Origin: Planctomycetota bacterium
GTDB taxonomy: Bacteria > Planctomycetota > Planctomycetia > Pirellulales > Pirellulaceae
Assembly: GCA_014381825.1 (NCBI GenBank)
Contig: JACNKX010000113.1
Span: forward strand, 127,367 to 191,366
Direction: 5' to 3'
DNA: 64,000 bases
The notes beneath the pieces are model-generated. The model saw only the letters and a program-made list of their open reading frames with translations. It searched no databases and was not told where the DNA came from. Both the position numbers and the translations under genes were made by a program. Below are positions 27,324 to 63,770 of this stretch, in pieces. Within the stretch, counting starts at the first letter, position 1. Each line of letters starts with the position of its first letter.

Positions 27324-27938
27324 ATGAGCAAGCAATCGCTTCTCGTCATTACATTGCTCGTGGCTCTTGCTGCGGGGTGCAATCCGTCGTCGTCCGACAA
27401 CGCAGTCGTGCCGGATGAAAATGCTCGTGATCTTTCGATCGACGCGTCTTCGGATATTCCGTTTGCCGCAGCCGACACGAACAAACCGGATGCGGTCGTC
27501 GAAGCGTTTCTCGTCGCACTTCGTGATGGCAACAACGAGATTGCGGAGGCGTTGCTAACAACCATCGCCCGCCGCGAAACGAAGGAACACGAACTCGCGG
27601 TCCAGCCTCCGGGTTCGCCTTCGGCCCAGTACGAGATCGGTGAAATCAAGCACGTGCAAGGCGGCGTACACGTCAACAGCATCTGGAGTGAGTTCGATGA
27701 GTCAGGTGAGCGATCGGTCTACGAAATCGTCTGGGTTCTACGACACGAGCCAATCGGCTGGCGAGTAGCCGGGATGGCGACGGCCGTAAACCCCGCTAAA
27801 CCGCCGATTTATTTGGACTTCGAGAACGTGCCAGACTTGCTCCAAAAGTGGAAGCAGGCCGATGCCGAGTTGGCGGCGCAGGCCGAAGAAGATCAGACGC
27901 TGCAAGCCGCCCAGCCTACAACAACGTTGCAGCGCTAA
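27324..27938 (+). CDS. Lipoprotein of unknown function
   Basis: About 204 aa with a lipoprotein leader ending LLVALAAGC. The mature part contains NKPDAVVEAFLVALRDGNNEIAEAL and later YEIVWVLRHEPIGWRVAGM, which looks like an NTF2/SnoaL-like cone fold of the kind found in many planctomycete lipoproteins; this is an inference by pattern. The frame is open 28 codons upstream, but the leader fixes the start at ATG 27324. The C-terminus is Ala/Gln-rich. Confidence 0.72.
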   Translation: MSKQSLLVITLLVALAAGCNPSSSDNAVVPDENARDLSIDASSDIPFAAADTNKPDAVVEAFLVALRDGNNEIAEALLTTIARRETKEHELAVQPPGSPSAQYEIGEIKHVQGGVHVNSIWSEFDESGERSVYEIVWVLRHEPIGWRVAGMATAVNPAKPPIYLDFENVPDLLQKWKQADAELAAQAEEDQTLQAAQPTTTLQR

Positions 27939-28065
27939 CGCGCCGAATCGCCAAGCGCTCCATCGCCCGCGCGTGTCGAGAGTAAACCGAGTATAGTAGT
28001 CTCCTACGGTTCGCCAAGAACCTCTGGAAACTTTCTGACTATGCTGAATCACGGGAGTTACTCCG

Positions 28066-57964: not shown

Positions 57965-58330
57965 ATGGCTACCAAAACGAAAAAGCGAAAGAAGATCAGA
58001 TTTCCACCGCAACCAGCGATTGAAGAACGCCCCCTCATCACCGATGACCAGGCGGCGGCGTTGATGCGGCTGTTCAAAGTGTTTTCTAACGACACTCGTC
58101 TGCGACTGTTGCACGCGCTGGTGCGCGAAGACGAACTGTGTGTGAGCGAGTTGGGGGAAGCTGTTGGCATGAAGCCGCAAGCGGTCTCTAACCAGCTGCA
58201 GCGATTGGTGGATCGAGGTATCGTTGGCTCGCGGCGAAACGGTGTCAACATGTACTACCGTGTCATTGATCCCTGTGTATCGGTTTTGCTAGAGCGAGGT
58301 CTTTGCCTGATTGGATGCTGCCCCGAGTAA
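57965..58330 (+). CDS. ArsR family transcriptional regulator
   Basis: About 121 aa with an ArsR/SmtB winged helix: MRLFKVFSNDTRLRLLHALV, ELCVSELGEAVGMKPQAVSNQLQRL (recognition helix) and the wing SRRNGVNMYYRV. The N-terminus is basic (ATKTKKRKK). The C-terminus is Cys-rich (DPCVSVLLERGLCLIGCCPE, four Cys), a possible metal or thiol sensing site; the classical CVC of arsenic sensors is reduced to one Cys (ELCVSEL). ATG 57965 follows the palindrome. The FGE-like gene begins 13 bp later, so it likely controls that operon. Confidence 0.92.
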   Translation: MATKTKKRKKIRFPPQPAIEERPLITDDQAAALMRLFKVFSNDTRLRLLHALVREDELCVSELGEAVGMKPQAVSNQLQRLVDRGIVGSRRNGVNMYYRVIDPCVSVLLERGLCLIGCCPE

Positions 58331-58343
58331 GGAGATGGCGACC

Positions 58344-59552
58344 ATGAAACGATTATTCTTAACAACTGCGGTGGCGATCGTTGTTGTTATGCCACGAGTT
58401 GCGCCCGCGGAGCCAAAGTCCGTCGCAGATCCAACGGGAAAGTCGCTGGCTGTTCGGTCAACGCCGAGCCCCAACGGACCGCAGGTTCAAATCGACGCGG
58501 TTGAGCGTTCAAAGATCAACAAAGAGATATTCGTTGACATGATTGGGTTGCGGCTGTGGGTGGACAGCGCCGAGTCGGCGAAACGCACTCGCGCGCTGGT
58601 CGCGACTCCGGCAGCTGCTCTTCGCGTCAAACAGAAGTTGGGCACCGCGATCATGGAGACGGGCGTCGAACCGGACATGATTCCGGTACGCGGCGAGGAG
58701 GGAAAGAAGATGGGGACGGCAGGCATGGTCCTGCTAAATGGCGGTGAGTTTACGCGCGTTGGCGATTTCTACGACTCCGGCGGTGGCGGCTTGACGATTC
58801 TAAAAGACGGCACTGCCCAAATCTCCCACGGCGCCAAATATCGCGTGCGTGTGTCGTCATTCCACATTGACAAGTTCAAAGTTACCAACGAGGAGTACTG
58901 CAAGTTCCTCAATAACGGCAACGCAGGCTATGCAACGCCCTGGAACCTGCGAATCGGCAAGGCTGCGGAAGGGAGAAACGCGGGCAAGTTCGTTCCTGCC
59001 GACAATTCGTTAGCGAAGCATCCGGTTGTGCTGGTCAATTGGTATCAGGCCAAAGGCTATGCATCTTGGGCAGGGAAGCGGCTTCCCACCGAAGCCGAGT
59101 GGGAGTATGCCGCCGCGGGCAAAGAGGGCCGCAAGTATCCGTGGGGCAACGAACCGCCTGACGAGACGCGGTTGGACTATCCAATCAAATTCAAACATCC
59201 AGTTCCCGTCGATTGGTTTCCCGCTGGCGCGACACCAGACGGCGTATTCCAAATGGCAGGCAATTCGGCCGAATGGTGTGCCGATTACTTCGATCACGCT
59301 TCGTACGCCAAGGCCCCGTCCGGCGGCGTGGCGGTCGATCCCACGGGAGCGAAGCAAGCCTTCCAACCCAACACTTGGTACAAGCACCGCGTGATGTTCA
59401 AAGGCTGGTGCAAGGCGAACCGTGCCGAGTACTTCACTTCTACAAAGCGTCACAGCCGTCCGCCACTGGCCGACGCGTCGGCTGGTGTCAGTATCCGCTG
59501 CGTGAAGAATGCCGCATCGGAAGGCAATGCACACAGGAGCTTACAACAATGA
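58344..59552 (+). CDS. Secreted FGE/SUMF1-domain protein
   Basis: About 402 aa with a signal peptide (LFLTTAVAIVVVMPRVAPAE), an N-terminal region of unknown type, then a formylglycine-generating-enzyme-like domain from about residue 130: MVLLNGGEFTRVGDF, FKVTNEEYCKFLNNGN, VNWYQAKGYASWAGKRLPTEAEWEYAAAGKE and VFQMAGNSAEWCADYF. The C-x4-C cysteine pair of true FGE enzymes is not visible, so this is likely a binding domain and not a sulfatase activator. ATG 58344 has AAGGAG at proper spacing. It overlaps the next gene (ATGA). Confidence 0.85.
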   Translation: MKRLFLTTAVAIVVVMPRVAPAEPKSVADPTGKSLAVRSTPSPNGPQVQIDAVERSKINKEIFVDMIGLRLWVDSAESAKRTRALVATPAAALRVKQKLGTAIMETGVEPDMIPVRGEEGKKMGTAGMVLLNGGEFTRVGDFYDSGGGGLTILKDGTAQISHGAKYRVRVSSFHIDKFKVTNEEYCKFLNNGNAGYATPWNLRIGKAAEGRNAGKFVPADNSLAKHPVVLVNWYQAKGYASWAGKRLPTEAEWEYAAAGKEGRKYPWGNEPPDETRLDYPIKFKHPVPVDWFPAGATPDGVFQMAGNSAEWCADYFDHASYAKAPSGGVAVDPTGAKQAFQPNTWYKHRVMFKGWCKANRAEYFTSTKRHSRPPLADASAGVSIRCVKNAASEGNAHRSLQQ

Positions 59553-62455
59553 AACGAATGTCGATCGTGTTGTTGACCGTTGCGTGGTTTATCACCTTGA
59601 CCGGAGTCGCGACGCTCGCTGACGAAACGCCCGCGTTAGCTGAGGCGCCTTTTGATGCTGCTCAGGCCAAACAGTATCAACAACAGTGGTCCGACCACAT
59701 CAGCAAGTCGTTGGTCCACAACAATTCGATCGGAATGCAGCTACGACTGATTCCGCCAAGCGAATTCACGATGGGCCGAACGGAAGAGCAGTTCGACCAC
59801 GTTCTGGAAATCTTCCAGAAAGAAGGACGCAAGCCAGCTCAAACTGCGACCTGGGAATTGCTGATGATGCCCGCGCATCGAGTTCGTATTACGAAGCCGT
59901 TCTACATGGGAACGACCGAAGTAACCGTCGCACAATTCCGTCAGTTCTGTGACGAATCAGGTTACAAGACCGAAGCGGAACGCGGGCTGCACGGTGGCAA
60001 ACCTTACAAAGGGCGACGCGGAATCTGCACGTGGCGAAAACCGATGGTCTGGATCAAGCTCAAGCAAGAAGACGATGAACCCGTGCTGCACCTATGCTGG
60101 AACGACTGCATCGAGTTTTGCAAATGGCTAAGCGAGAAAGAAGGTGTCGAATACTGTCTGCCTTCTGAAGCAGAATGGGAATACGCTTGCCGTGCGGGAA
60201 CGACAACGGCTTGGAGTTTCGGCAACTTCGAAGACTTTGACCGTTTGGGGCACGAATACATGTTCGTCTCGGATGGCAAACAGGGAAAACACGATCGGCC
60301 GAGCCGTGTTGCGCAGAAGAAGCCGAACGCCTTTGGGCTGTACGACATGCACGGCAATGTTTGGGAATACGTCGCCGATTGGTGGCATCGCTATACCTAC
60401 AAAAACTCGCCGCTAAACGATCCGACCGGCCCGAACAAACAGAGCGAAAAAGGCGATATGCGCCGTATCATTCGTACCGGCTCGTTTGACTGGGGACGCT
60501 GGGGCGCGCAATCAGTCTATCGCATGCGGATCACGCAGCGGTCGACTCAACATCCCCACCAAGGTTTCCGCGTGGCGATGCGGATCAAAGATGTCGAAGG
60601 AGTGCCGCCAGCCGTCGATCCTAATGCCGATCGCCGCAGGCAGCCGCGCGATCCCGGCGCGGATTCCAAAAAAGTCGTTGCTGCTTTAAAAACCGGCGCG
60701 GCCATCGGTAAAGAACTGCCCAAGGAGTTGAGTGTCGAGTTGAACGACAAGGTCAAGATTGAGTTCGTCCTCATTCCCGTAGGCACATGCCTGATGGGCT
60801 CCAACAAAGGCGCGAAAGACGAAGGTCCGATTCACCGTGTTGTCATCTCCAAACCGTTCTACATGGCCAAGCATGAGCTGACGACGTCGCAGTGGGAAGC
60901 GGTGATGGGCAAGCACGAGTTTCTGACCAAACTCACCGAGGGCGACAACCTGATGAAGGGCCCGACCAAGGCCATGAACGTCCTCAGTTGGGACGACTGC
61001 CAAAGTTTCATTAAGAAGCTCAAAACGAAATCGCCGAATCATGCGTTCGCGCTACCCACCGAAGCCCAGTGGGAATACGCCTGCCGCGCGGGCAGCACGA
61101 TGGAGTTTCACTTCGGCGACGACGCCTCGAAGATGGGTGAGTACGCATGGTTCGAGGGCAACATGATCTGGCCCAACAAACCGGCATTTCAAGGCAAGGC
61201 GTTCTACCACGACGTCGGCACAAAGAAACCAAACGATTTCGGGTTGTACGACATGCACGGCGGCGTGTGGGAATGGTGCGCGGACAAGTATGGCGCAGAT
61301 TACTATTTCGACTCGCCACTGGTTGATCCGACGGGACCAGAGTCCGGCAGGTATCGCGTCCTGCGCGGCGGCTCGTGGTTCCGCTATGCCAAGTATTGTC
61401 GCAGCGCCTATCGCAAGTTTTTCTATCCCGCCTGCGACGGCGATGGCGTCACGGCTTGGATCAATGATTTCGGCTGCCGGCTAGTGATTAATCTTGATGA
61501 CACCAGTCGGGCTGCTTCGCTCAAACAGCCAACCGCGCAAGCGCAATCAACGATTCGCTTCGCCGAGAACCTCGTAAAGCACAAATCTAATCCGGTGTTC
61601 GATATCGGCAAGAAGGGTGATTGGGACGAGAAGAACTGCGGTTGCTTTTCGGTCGACCGATTTAACGATCGCTTTCATCTTTACTACATGGGCTCCGGCA
61701 AAAACAATCCGTGGCGGATCGGGTTGGCGACTTCCGACGACGGCGTGAAATGGACGCGGCACGCGTCAAATCCGGTGCTGCCGCAAGGTCCAGCCGGAAG
61801 CTGGGACGATCGCGCCGTGTCGATGCCGTACATCGTAAACGACGGCAAGTCGCTGTGCATGATCTACAGCGGAACGGGCAAGGGCGGCGGATTCGGCTTG
61901 GCGATGTCCGGCGACGGCGTGAAATGGAATCGTTACGGCGACACGCCGCTGCTGCGCGGCATTGGCGGCAGTATGGACCCGTGTCTCCGCAAGTTTGATG
62001 GCAAATACATCCTTTGGTATTGCGGGAAGCAAGGAAAATCGTATCGCATTTTTCGAGCGACCTCGCCGGACGGTGTTCGCTGGACGAAGCACCCGCAACC
62101 CGTTTTGCCGCTGGGCAACCAAGAAGAATTCGACGAGACTTCGCACGCCGGTCCGGTGGTCGTGAAAGTCAAGGGCGTGTACTACCTGTTCCATCTCGGC
62201 GGCAGCAGCCGTGGTTGGAAGGCGGGCCTGGCGACCTCGCGCGACGGCGTTCACTGGACGAAGTCCGCAGCCAACCCGATTCTCGATGTCGGCGGCAAAG
62301 GCGATTGGGACGGCGGCTCGATCCTCAGCATCGACGCTCTATGGCGGAATGACCGCTTTCATATCTGGTACGCCGCTCATTCCCTTGCCGACGCAGGCAA
62401 ACCCGAAATGGAACAAACGATCCGCATCGGGTGCGCGATGAGCGATACAAAATAG
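59549..62455 (+). CDS. Secreted FGE-FGE-beta-propeller fusion protein
   Basis: About 968 aa. Signal peptide (SIVLLTVAWFITLTGVATLA), then FGE-like domain 1 at about residues 57-347 (LCWNDCIEFCKWLSE, LPSEAEWEYACRAG, GLYDMHGNVWEYVADWW), FGE-like domain 2 at about 400-650 (LPTEAQWEYACRAGS, GLYDMHGGVWEWCADKY, RVLRGGSWF), and a C-terminal five-bladed-propeller region at 670-967 like GH43/GH32 enzymes (RIGLATSDDGVKWTRH, FGLAMSGDGVKWNRY, GLATSRDGVHWTK). Neither FGE domain shows the catalytic Cys pair. Start by ATGA overlap with the preceding gene. Likely a glycan-binding or glycan-processing exported protein. Confidence 0.87.
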   Translation: MKRMSIVLLTVAWFITLTGVATLADETPALAEAPFDAAQAKQYQQQWSDHISKSLVHNNSIGMQLRLIPPSEFTMGRTEEQFDHVLEIFQKEGRKPAQTATWELLMMPAHRVRITKPFYMGTTEVTVAQFRQFCDESGYKTEAERGLHGGKPYKGRRGICTWRKPMVWIKLKQEDDEPVLHLCWNDCIEFCKWLSEKEGVEYCLPSEAEWEYACRAGTTTAWSFGNFEDFDRLGHEYMFVSDGKQGKHDRPSRVAQKKPNAFGLYDMHGNVWEYVADWWHRYTYKNSPLNDPTGPNKQSEKGDMRRIIRTGSFDWGRWGAQSVYRMRITQRSTQHPHQGFRVAMRIKDVEGVPPAVDPNADRRRQPRDPGADSKKVVAALKTGAAIGKELPKELSVELNDKVKIEFVLIPVGTCLMGSNKGAKDEGPIHRVVISKPFYMAKHELTTSQWEAVMGKHEFLTKLTEGDNLMKGPTKAMNVLSWDDCQSFIKKLKTKSPNHAFALPTEAQWEYACRAGSTMEFHFGDDASKMGEYAWFEGNMIWPNKPAFQGKAFYHDVGTKKPNDFGLYDMHGGVWEWCADKYGADYYFDSPLVDPTGPESGRYRVLRGGSWFRYAKYCRSAYRKFFYPACDGDGVTAWINDFGCRLVINLDDTSRAASLKQPTAQAQSTIRFAENLVKHKSNPVFDIGKKGDWDEKNCGCFSVDRFNDRFHLYYMGSGKNNPWRIGLATSDDGVKWTRHASNPVLPQGPAGSWDDRAVSMPYIVNDGKSLCMIYSGTGKGGGFGLAMSGDGVKWNRYGDTPLLRGIGGSMDPCLRKFDGKYILWYCGKQGKSYRIFRATSPDGVRWTKHPQPVLPLGNQEEFDETSHAGPVVVKVKGVYYLFHLGGSSRGWKAGLATSRDGVHWTKSAANPILDVGGKGDWDGGSILSIDALWRNDRFHIWYAAHSLADAGKPEMEQTIRIGCAMSDTK

Positions 62456-62564: not shown

Positions 62565-63770
62565 ATGAAAACTCTAACTCTTGCCCTGTTCCTGTTCTCG
62601 TTGAACGCGACGGCAAGCTCCGAAGAGCAGCCCACTCCCGCGCAGCGATATCGCCAACACATCAGGGACTACAACATCGTCTCGCGTGAGATCACACGTT
62701 CGAAAACAGTCAAAGATCGCAAGGCCGTTGCCCGACGGTTTGACGAGTTCGCGAAGAAGTTCCTTGATATTGCCGACAAACATTCCAAGGATCCCATCGC
62801 ACTTACGGCGATTCGTTCGGCCGTACAAGCAATTGTCACTACGGATTCACGCGCTCAAAATATCGCCGAGTTCCACCCCGGCACGTTGGTCGCCGGTAGC
62901 TCGGACGGCTCAACGCAGCGAGTCGTCAATCTCGTGCAACGCGATCACCTAATGAGCAACAGATTAGCGCCGATTTGCGACCGGATGCGTTTCAGCTATC
63001 GGCCGGAATTCGAACCATTGCTCGTCGCCGCCATCAAAGAGAATCCGCACCGTGACGTGCATGGGTTGGCTCAGTTGGCTTTGGCTCAATTGCTACACAA
63101 CCAGTTGCGTCTGATGGATCTCGCTAGCGACCGACCCGACTTGGTAAAGCGTTACGGTACGATCTATGGCCGGGGTTACATCGATCGACTTCAACGGATT
63201 GGACGAGATCAACTCGTCAAACGGATGGAGACAGCGTACGAAGCGGCCGTCCAGTTTGACGATGTGACGAACATTCCCTTCAAAACGTCGGTTGCAGAAA
63301 AAGCCAAAAGCGAGCTATACGAACTCCGCCATCTTTCCAAGGGCAAGCTCGCACCGGAGATTCAAGGACAGGATCAGGACGGCCGTCAGTTCAAGCTGAC
63401 AGACTACCGCGGCAAAGTCGTTCTCCTGTACTTTTGGCAGGAATACTGACTGACGTGACGGGCACACTGGCCCCACGAGCGGTCGCTCGTCAAAAATCTT
63501 TCCGGCAAACCCTTCGCGATGCTGGGCGTCAACATCCTGCCGCACACGCCAGAGGAACTAAAGAAAGTGAAGGATGCCCACAAGCTCAACTGGCGCAATT
63601 TCGCCGATGATGGCTCGATTGCCAAACGATGGAATTCGCCCGCGACGCCGTCTTTCTACATCATCGACCACCAGGGCTTCATTCGGCATAAATGGATCGG
63701 TCACCCCGGCGAGAAGACCATTGAGGCCGCCCTGGTGAAGTTGCTTCGCCAAGTGAAACCCGGCAAGTAA
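62565..63770 (+). CDS. TlpA/thioredoxin-like selenoprotein with UxxU motif (read through two TGA codons)
   Basis: Read as one frame of 401 residues. Signal peptide (LTLALFLFSLNATASSE), a helical N-terminal region, then a redoxin/TlpA domain from about residue 265: APEIQGQDQDGRQFKLTDYR, GKVVLLYFWQEY, then TGA (63447), Leu-Thr, TGA (63456), then RAHWPHERSLVKNLSG, and on to the cis-Pro segment TPSFYIIDHQGF and the end VKPGK at TAA. In TlpA/ResA proteins FWxxWCxxCR stands at this site, so both TGAs occupy the two Cys positions (295 and 298). The frame is intact on both sides. Selenocysteine at both is the best reading; double nonsense decay is the alternative. A TATACT lies 6 nt before the ATG. 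Confidence 0.8.
63475..63490 (+). promoter_or_regulatory. Candidate bacterial SECIS element
   Basis: Perfect 6-bp stem ACGAGC/GCTCGT around the tetraloop GGTC (RNA GGUC). The loop starts 22 nt after the second TGA and 31 nt after the first. Both are inside the 16-37 nt range described for bacterial SECIS. The loop begins with G, as required, and GGUC is the loop sequence of the E. coli fdhF element as I recall it. Within a coding frame, it reads through ERSLV. Confidence 0.7.

Follow-up and report, generated by a model that had tools for sequence, protein, structure and literature searches.

Two TGA codons interrupt an otherwise open reading frame in the DNA of a Planctomycetota bacterium. 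The question that this locus raises is whether both are read as selenocysteine (Sec, U) at the catalytic positions of a thioredoxin-like protein and, if so, which signal directs the insertion. The gene is located at positions 62565–63770 of the window, by which we mean the whole stretch of 64,000 nucleotides that was analysed, on the plus strand, which is also the strand of all gene features given below. With TGA read as U, the frame runs from ATG to TAA and encodes 401 residues with U295, U298 and zero further stops. The two codons, UGA1 (63447–63449, predicted Sec295, the first active-site position) and UGA2 (63456–63458, predicted Sec298, the second), are exactly where a preliminary description of this DNA had placed them, in the translated context FWQEY-U-LT-U-RAHWPHERS. 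That description had also proposed that both stops coincide with the two cysteines of a ResA/TlpA-like domain that is otherwise undamaged. Cys codons are indeed found in relatives at these two columns, and the window gene retains the loop ATPSFYIID and has no further stop in its frame. The same two UGA codons were found again in many other assemblies. A double Sec in the gene, predicted as to both its insertion and its activity, is very likely.

The encoded protein starts with a hydrophobic stretch (residues 1–19, 62565–62621), by eye a likely export signal, so that the product is likely exported. The first 20 residues have low confidence in the structure model. Residues 20–250 (62622–63314) form an almost all-helical N-terminal domain in the AlphaFold2 model (pLDDT 95.2), for which the search gave no confident PDB relative. 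They are followed by a thioredoxin-fold domain of PF00578 (residues 260–375, 63342–63689). The fold predicted with high model confidence is therefore a helical domain joined to a ResA-like thioredoxin domain. The codon of Pro362 (63648–63650) was invariant in both alignments, A1 with 4 rows and A2 with 28 rows, and by homology we take this residue to be the cis-Pro that the fold has beside its active site. The only Pfam matches at E ≤ 0.001 were PF00578, PF08534 and PF13905. The PF00578 score above the cut-off and the ResA-like fold place the protein among the ResA/TlpA-like thioredoxin folds, and PF00578 combined with UxxU places it among the Prx-like thiol:disulfide oxidoreductase selenoproteins, which are characterized by PF00578 and UxxC or UxxU. 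Narrower families were rejected. The model of ResA proper (NCBIfam NF002854) gave 50.5 bits against a cut-off of 170, so the protein is ResA-like and not ResA; WAxxUGC_long (NF041054) gave 29.3 bits against 300 and the TUGYCR redoxin model (NF053656) 25 bits against 100. Membership in SelL/Prx-like 2 was also rejected, with no match to PF13911, a Pfam model of that family, or to PF04592. The latter is the model named for Prx-like 2 in passages of PMC2398784.

The genome (9.69 Mb in 238 contigs, 99.93% complete and 2.71% contaminated) contains all four components of the Sec machinery that the preliminary description had suggested looking for. We detected tRNA-Sec (67 bits, anticodon TCA), selB (352 bits, contig C59), selA (565 bits) adjoining selB on C59, and selD (L015, G000:C135, 345 bits). 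The selD gene has its own in-frame TGA and a hairpin with the loop GGUCG located 32 nt after that codon. Otherwise TGA is an ordinary stop, which terminates 13 of the 28 long window ORFs checked.

To collect relatives, each species was represented by a single genome, which was scanned with peptide patterns from the region before the site; the best 80 of the 365 loci obtained were examined. At the active-site columns 32 of these had U..U, 40 had U..C and 8 had C..C (UU, UC and CC below), and the C..U type was represented by 0 of the best 80 of 365. Column by column, the position of UGA1 was TGA in 72/80 and a Cys codon in 8/80 of the best loci, and that of UGA2 was TGA in 32/80 and a Cys codon in 48/80. 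Both kinds of relative that would be expected beside a Sec-Sec protein, Cys-Cys (P0032, L032, L042 and L045) and Sec-Cys, are thus present at the same columns. The record titles of the UU loci belong to Planctomycetota and Verrucomicrobiota groups, including Paludisphaera soli JC670 (L059), with the exception of one bacterium with two loci. A match with two TGA codons occurred in at least 7 of 196 genomes (the one that contains the window and those of relatives), among the matches listed. Among the candidates scored in the protein database we counted 633 homologues. Among the 120 listed, 118 stop immediately ahead of residue 295 (117 by pattern and P0097 by eye); P0019 ends three residues later than this stop position and has Cys at 295, and P0032 is a full-length CxxC protein. 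Automatic gene calling had been expected to yield two fragments, the second starting near 63519, and to miss the active site. An in-frame ATG is indeed found at 63519, and for this family of Planctomycetota and Verrucomicrobiota the active site is cut off in those 118 records.

Further members were detected in the same genome. One is a second UU copy on C163, a single open frame with the motif FWSEFULTUR and 48% identity, and another is a U..C copy on C15 with FWGHWUGPCR. A third UU copy on C69 (L020/L022/L023, G000:C69:16155–17315) has two frame breaks. For the C69 copy and L066, a 3.5 kb locus matched part of another assembly at 100% identity; the two are therefore not independent, and the breaks may have arisen at the assembly level or be real. 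A distant ResA-like locus (L029, G000:C75, match 1501–1845) has one in-frame TGA and the motif WASWUTCR (UxC), which by eye resembles WAxxUGC.

A hairpin that was absent from the preliminary description, as was its fit to both codons, lies downstream of the two UGAs. This predicted SECIS, ACGAGC-GGUC-GCUCGU (63475–63490), has a stem formed by 63475–63480 and 63485–63490 and a loop at 63481–63484. The loop is 31 nt past UGA1 and 22 nt past UGA2, and the base is 25 nt below UGA1 and 16 nt below UGA2. All six pairs and the GGUC loop were observed in 36/36 UU and 54/54 UC distinct genes (90/90 UGA genes). The six pairs occurred together in 0/12 CC genes, three of which, those nested in the UU clade, retain the loop letters GGTC. 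From codon +9 the DNA of UU and UC genes reads CAC GAG CGG TCG CTC GTN with few exceptions, and those in the stem (GAG to GGG, CAC to CAT or AGC, CTC to CTT) replace a pair by G-U, so that the stem stays paired. The codons TCG (Ser) and CGG (Arg) were each fixed in 90/90 genes and CTC (Leu) in 89/90. On a tree of 82 UGA genes the synonymous third-base changes in codons +9 to +13 numbered 1, 0, 0, 0 and 1, compared with 29 in the single codon that precedes them and 27 in the single codon that follows. This synonymous freeze, with its edges at the hairpin, points to a constraint on the nucleotides beyond that on the protein. The hairpin hardly varies and, for that reason, shows almost no covariation. 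The codon CGG that follows UGA2 (63459–63461; in UC genes it follows the Cys codon) also showed few synonymous changes, 5 on the tree, and may join a lower stem.

According to passages of PMC13188914, the bacterial SECIS (bSECIS) model has a loop of 3–9 nt, a stem of 4–16 bp, a G in the first two loop positions and a distance of 16–37 nt from the UGA. The 4-nt loop GGUC and the 6-bp stem agree with this model in 90/90 distinct UGA genes, and in the window gene the distance lies within 16–37 nt from either UGA. Across codons +1 to +25, the 82-gene tree revealed no second stretch that is equally frozen. Since both distances are within the range and no second element stood out, it is likely that one SECIS serves both UGAs.

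Folding predictions depended on whether a ribosome was taken into account. When the RNA was folded freely from UGA1, the hairpin had a probability of 0.03 in the window gene and a competing fold was preferred; the median was 0.36 for UU genes (at least 0.5 in 15/36) and 0.98 for UC genes (at least 0.5 in 45/54). In the ribosome-covered setting, with the UGA and the 12 nt after it hidden from folding, the hairpin probability in the window gene was 0.99 for either UGA. It reached at least 0.5 in 32/36 UU and 49/54 UC genes with UGA1 covered and in 33/36 UU genes with UGA2 covered, and was 0 for the 12 CC genes in the UGA1 setting. The competing fold from UGA1 (63447–63490) is commoner in UU than in UC genes, hides the hairpin in free RNA and is a possible off-state.

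Could the two codons mean something other than Sec? The idea that TGA is a general sense codon of this organism found no supporting point, and both the window ORFs that terminate in TGA and the Cys codons of relatives at the same columns contradict it; we consider it the least probable of all readings, practically negligible. Hardly more credible is a pseudogene or a sequencing error in which stops fell at the cysteines by chance. The broken C69 copy shows that frame breaks do occur in this gene family within the same genome, but the window copy has no other lesion, 36 distinct genes of the tree share both UGAs, the hairpin is frozen and the Sec machinery is present. Decay would also have relaxed the constraint beyond the UGAs; this was looked for and not seen. 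In comparison with the UU relative L031 the dN/dS was 0.082 before the UGAs and 0.068 after them, and with the UU relative L033 it was 0.156 before and 0.080 after, at synonymous distances that are large (1.25 and 2.58, respectively); with the CC relative L032 the values were 0.184 and 0.185. The homologues, whose decay would have told against the proposal of the preliminary description, thus show no decay: the clade in which the two UGAs are found again comprises 36 UU and 3 CC genes, and purifying selection acts on the sequence downstream of these codons.

The remaining doubts concern the hairpin and the second codon. The invariance of the 16 nt might reflect a constraint on the protein, in which the residues HERSLV are conserved too, or an element in the DNA or mRNA that has nothing to do with Sec, and the little variation and near absence of covariation are what one would also see in that case. 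Synonymous sites are nevertheless frozen there while adjacent codons vary, the six pairs are missing from the CC relatives even where GGTC is kept, and the position and loop fit the bSECIS model, which makes this explanation very improbable. Somewhat less remote, though still improbable, is that UGA1 alone is decoded as Sec and that UGA2 is subject to near-cognate read-through or mostly to termination, the outcome being either a U..X protein or a truncated one. In the UC relatives the same hairpin, identically placed, has only UGA1 to serve, so that its spacing is tuned to UGA1, and the spacing in selD is closer to the 31 nt of UGA1 than to the 22 nt of UGA2. However, 22 nt is within the range published in passages of PMC13188914, and the comparisons with L031 and L033 show selection downstream of UGA2 that is no weaker than upstream of UGA1. 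Moreover, every one of the 48 loci among the best 80 that lack TGA in the UGA2 column has a Cys codon there, and in the 39 rows of the UU clade this column is TGA in 36, Cys in 3 and any other residue in 0. We therefore hold it highly probable that the gene encodes a UxxU ResA/TlpA-like protein with Sec at both sites and that the single conserved hairpin is the SECIS for both. The claim of two Sec residues in the preliminary description gains support from the machinery, the non-decayed homologues and the Cys and Sec relatives at the same columns, and the insertion itself is what these observations lead us to infer.

How the second Sec arose was examined on a tree of 94 rows with a midpoint root and a bootstrap that is not fully settled. 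The UU genes and three CC genes formed one clade (support 100/98) placed inside the UC genes. The UU character required three changes on the tree, consistent with one gain and two losses, and in the losses (L032; L042 with L045) both codons were changed and the hairpin was broken. The direction from UC to UU is likely but, given the rooting and the bootstrap, not proven. In the UC genes, too, the hairpin sits at these codons; it is therefore probably older than the second Sec, which probably came in under a SECIS that was already there. Most likely it arose by a Cys-to-UGA change that required no new SECIS.

In the 47 genomes examined, selB was above the cut-off in 24/25 UU, 13/14 UC and 5/8 CC genomes, and a clear tRNA-Sec (60 bits or more, our own threshold, set at a score gap from 60.9 to about 54) was found in 18/25, 12/14 and 3/8, respectively. 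The seven UU genomes of 25 without a clear tRNA-Sec are mostly draft MAGs, and in G198 selB is only a 57-residue piece at a contig edge. The genomes of the CC revertants L032 and L042 are without a full selB and without a clear tRNA-Sec, and that of L045 has both. Not every Cys form can be put down to loss of the machinery, because five of the eight CC genomes, including that of L045, keep selB.

Decoding of both codons under one hairpin would proceed as follows. Sec-tRNA would be made by SelA, SelD and tRNA-Sec, whose genes are present and whose activity is presumed. With UGA1 in the A site the hairpin would still be folded 25 nt below, and SelB bound to GGUC would deliver the first Sec. Three codons on, with UGA2 in the A site and the hairpin 16 nt off, a reloaded SelB would use the hairpin again before it is unwound. 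For E. coli a recoding rate of 30–40% per UGA is reported (PMC4513850), at which two independent events would yield about 9–16% full-length product. That the hairpin is folded at both decoding moments is suggested by these spacings of its base. The product would be an exported oxidoreductase of the cell envelope whose two selenols would in turn be oxidized to a diselenide and reduced again. The preliminary description had likewise expected a secreted, highly reducing enzyme, and both properties stay predictions. We think it probable, with somewhat less assurance than for the double Sec under one SECIS, that one ribosome reads the single in-frame hairpin twice, with SelB reloading within three codons, to make a diselenide ResA-type enzyme, that the second Sec was gained once under a pre-existing hairpin, and that in the genes examined the pair was lost only together and with the hairpin.

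The protein differs from ResA/TlpA thiol-disulfide oxidoreductases (PF00578) in that both cysteine codons are UGA and in an extra helical N-terminal domain of 230 residues. The redoxin-fold families WAxxUGC and TUGYCR, ResA-like and with Sec forms by name, have a different motif and one U. SelL forms a diselenide, and in eukaryotes its SECIS is located in the 3'-UTR. Passages of PMC2398784 describe UxxU in Prx-like 2/SelL of aquatic organisms; two Sec three apart and a predicted diselenide are common to SelL and the present protein, but SelL is a different Prx-like family, whereas here a PF00578 ResA type is combined with an in-frame bacterial hairpin. Closer by description are the 'Prx-like thiol:disulfide oxidoreductase' selenoproteins of a catalogue, which passages of PMC13188914 and PMC9312934 present as a single UxxC/UxxU group with PF00578, 1–2 Sec and one example accession, and which share the Pfam family and the motif types with our gene. 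The string 'Planctomyc' has 0 occurrences in the main texts of these two papers, and their passages do not mention one SECIS for two UGAs. In archaea, according to passages of PMC9499178, selenoprotein genes with two UGAs have one SECIS, mostly in the 3'-UTR at 70–1,500 nt. The single SECIS for both UGAs is thus shared, with the difference that the present hairpin is in frame, bacterial and 22 and 31 nt away. Planctomycete selenoproteins are treated in passages of PMC4807772, whose lists may already name the present gene type. No statement of one bacterial SECIS serving two UGAs was found among the open-licence papers searched. The preliminary description had called a double-Sec motif at least rare; this holds within the present fold as far as seen, but UxxU is already listed for PF00578 and for other selenoprotein families in passages of PMC13188914 and PMC2398784. 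UxxU selenoproteins are known already in other families, and the newer aspect is the arrangement with one hairpin.

The locus makes it testable whether one SECIS can serve two UGAs nine nucleotides apart and whether SelB can be reloaded before the hairpin is unwound. The natural UU, UC and CC versions, with the hairpin kept or lost, form a series for gauging the contribution of the second selenium to a thioredoxin-fold enzyme. Among the loci compared, no widely shared neighbour genes hinting at partners were seen. Elsewhere in the window, at 27871–27967, ARAGORN made a tRNA-like call with an unreadable anticodon, which is probably false. The ORFs upstream of the gene (58311–62455) are by eye of the formylglycine-generating-enzyme type, one of them with a glycosidase-like end, and a similar ORF was located at most 5 kb from the gene in two other compared loci (L033 and L034).
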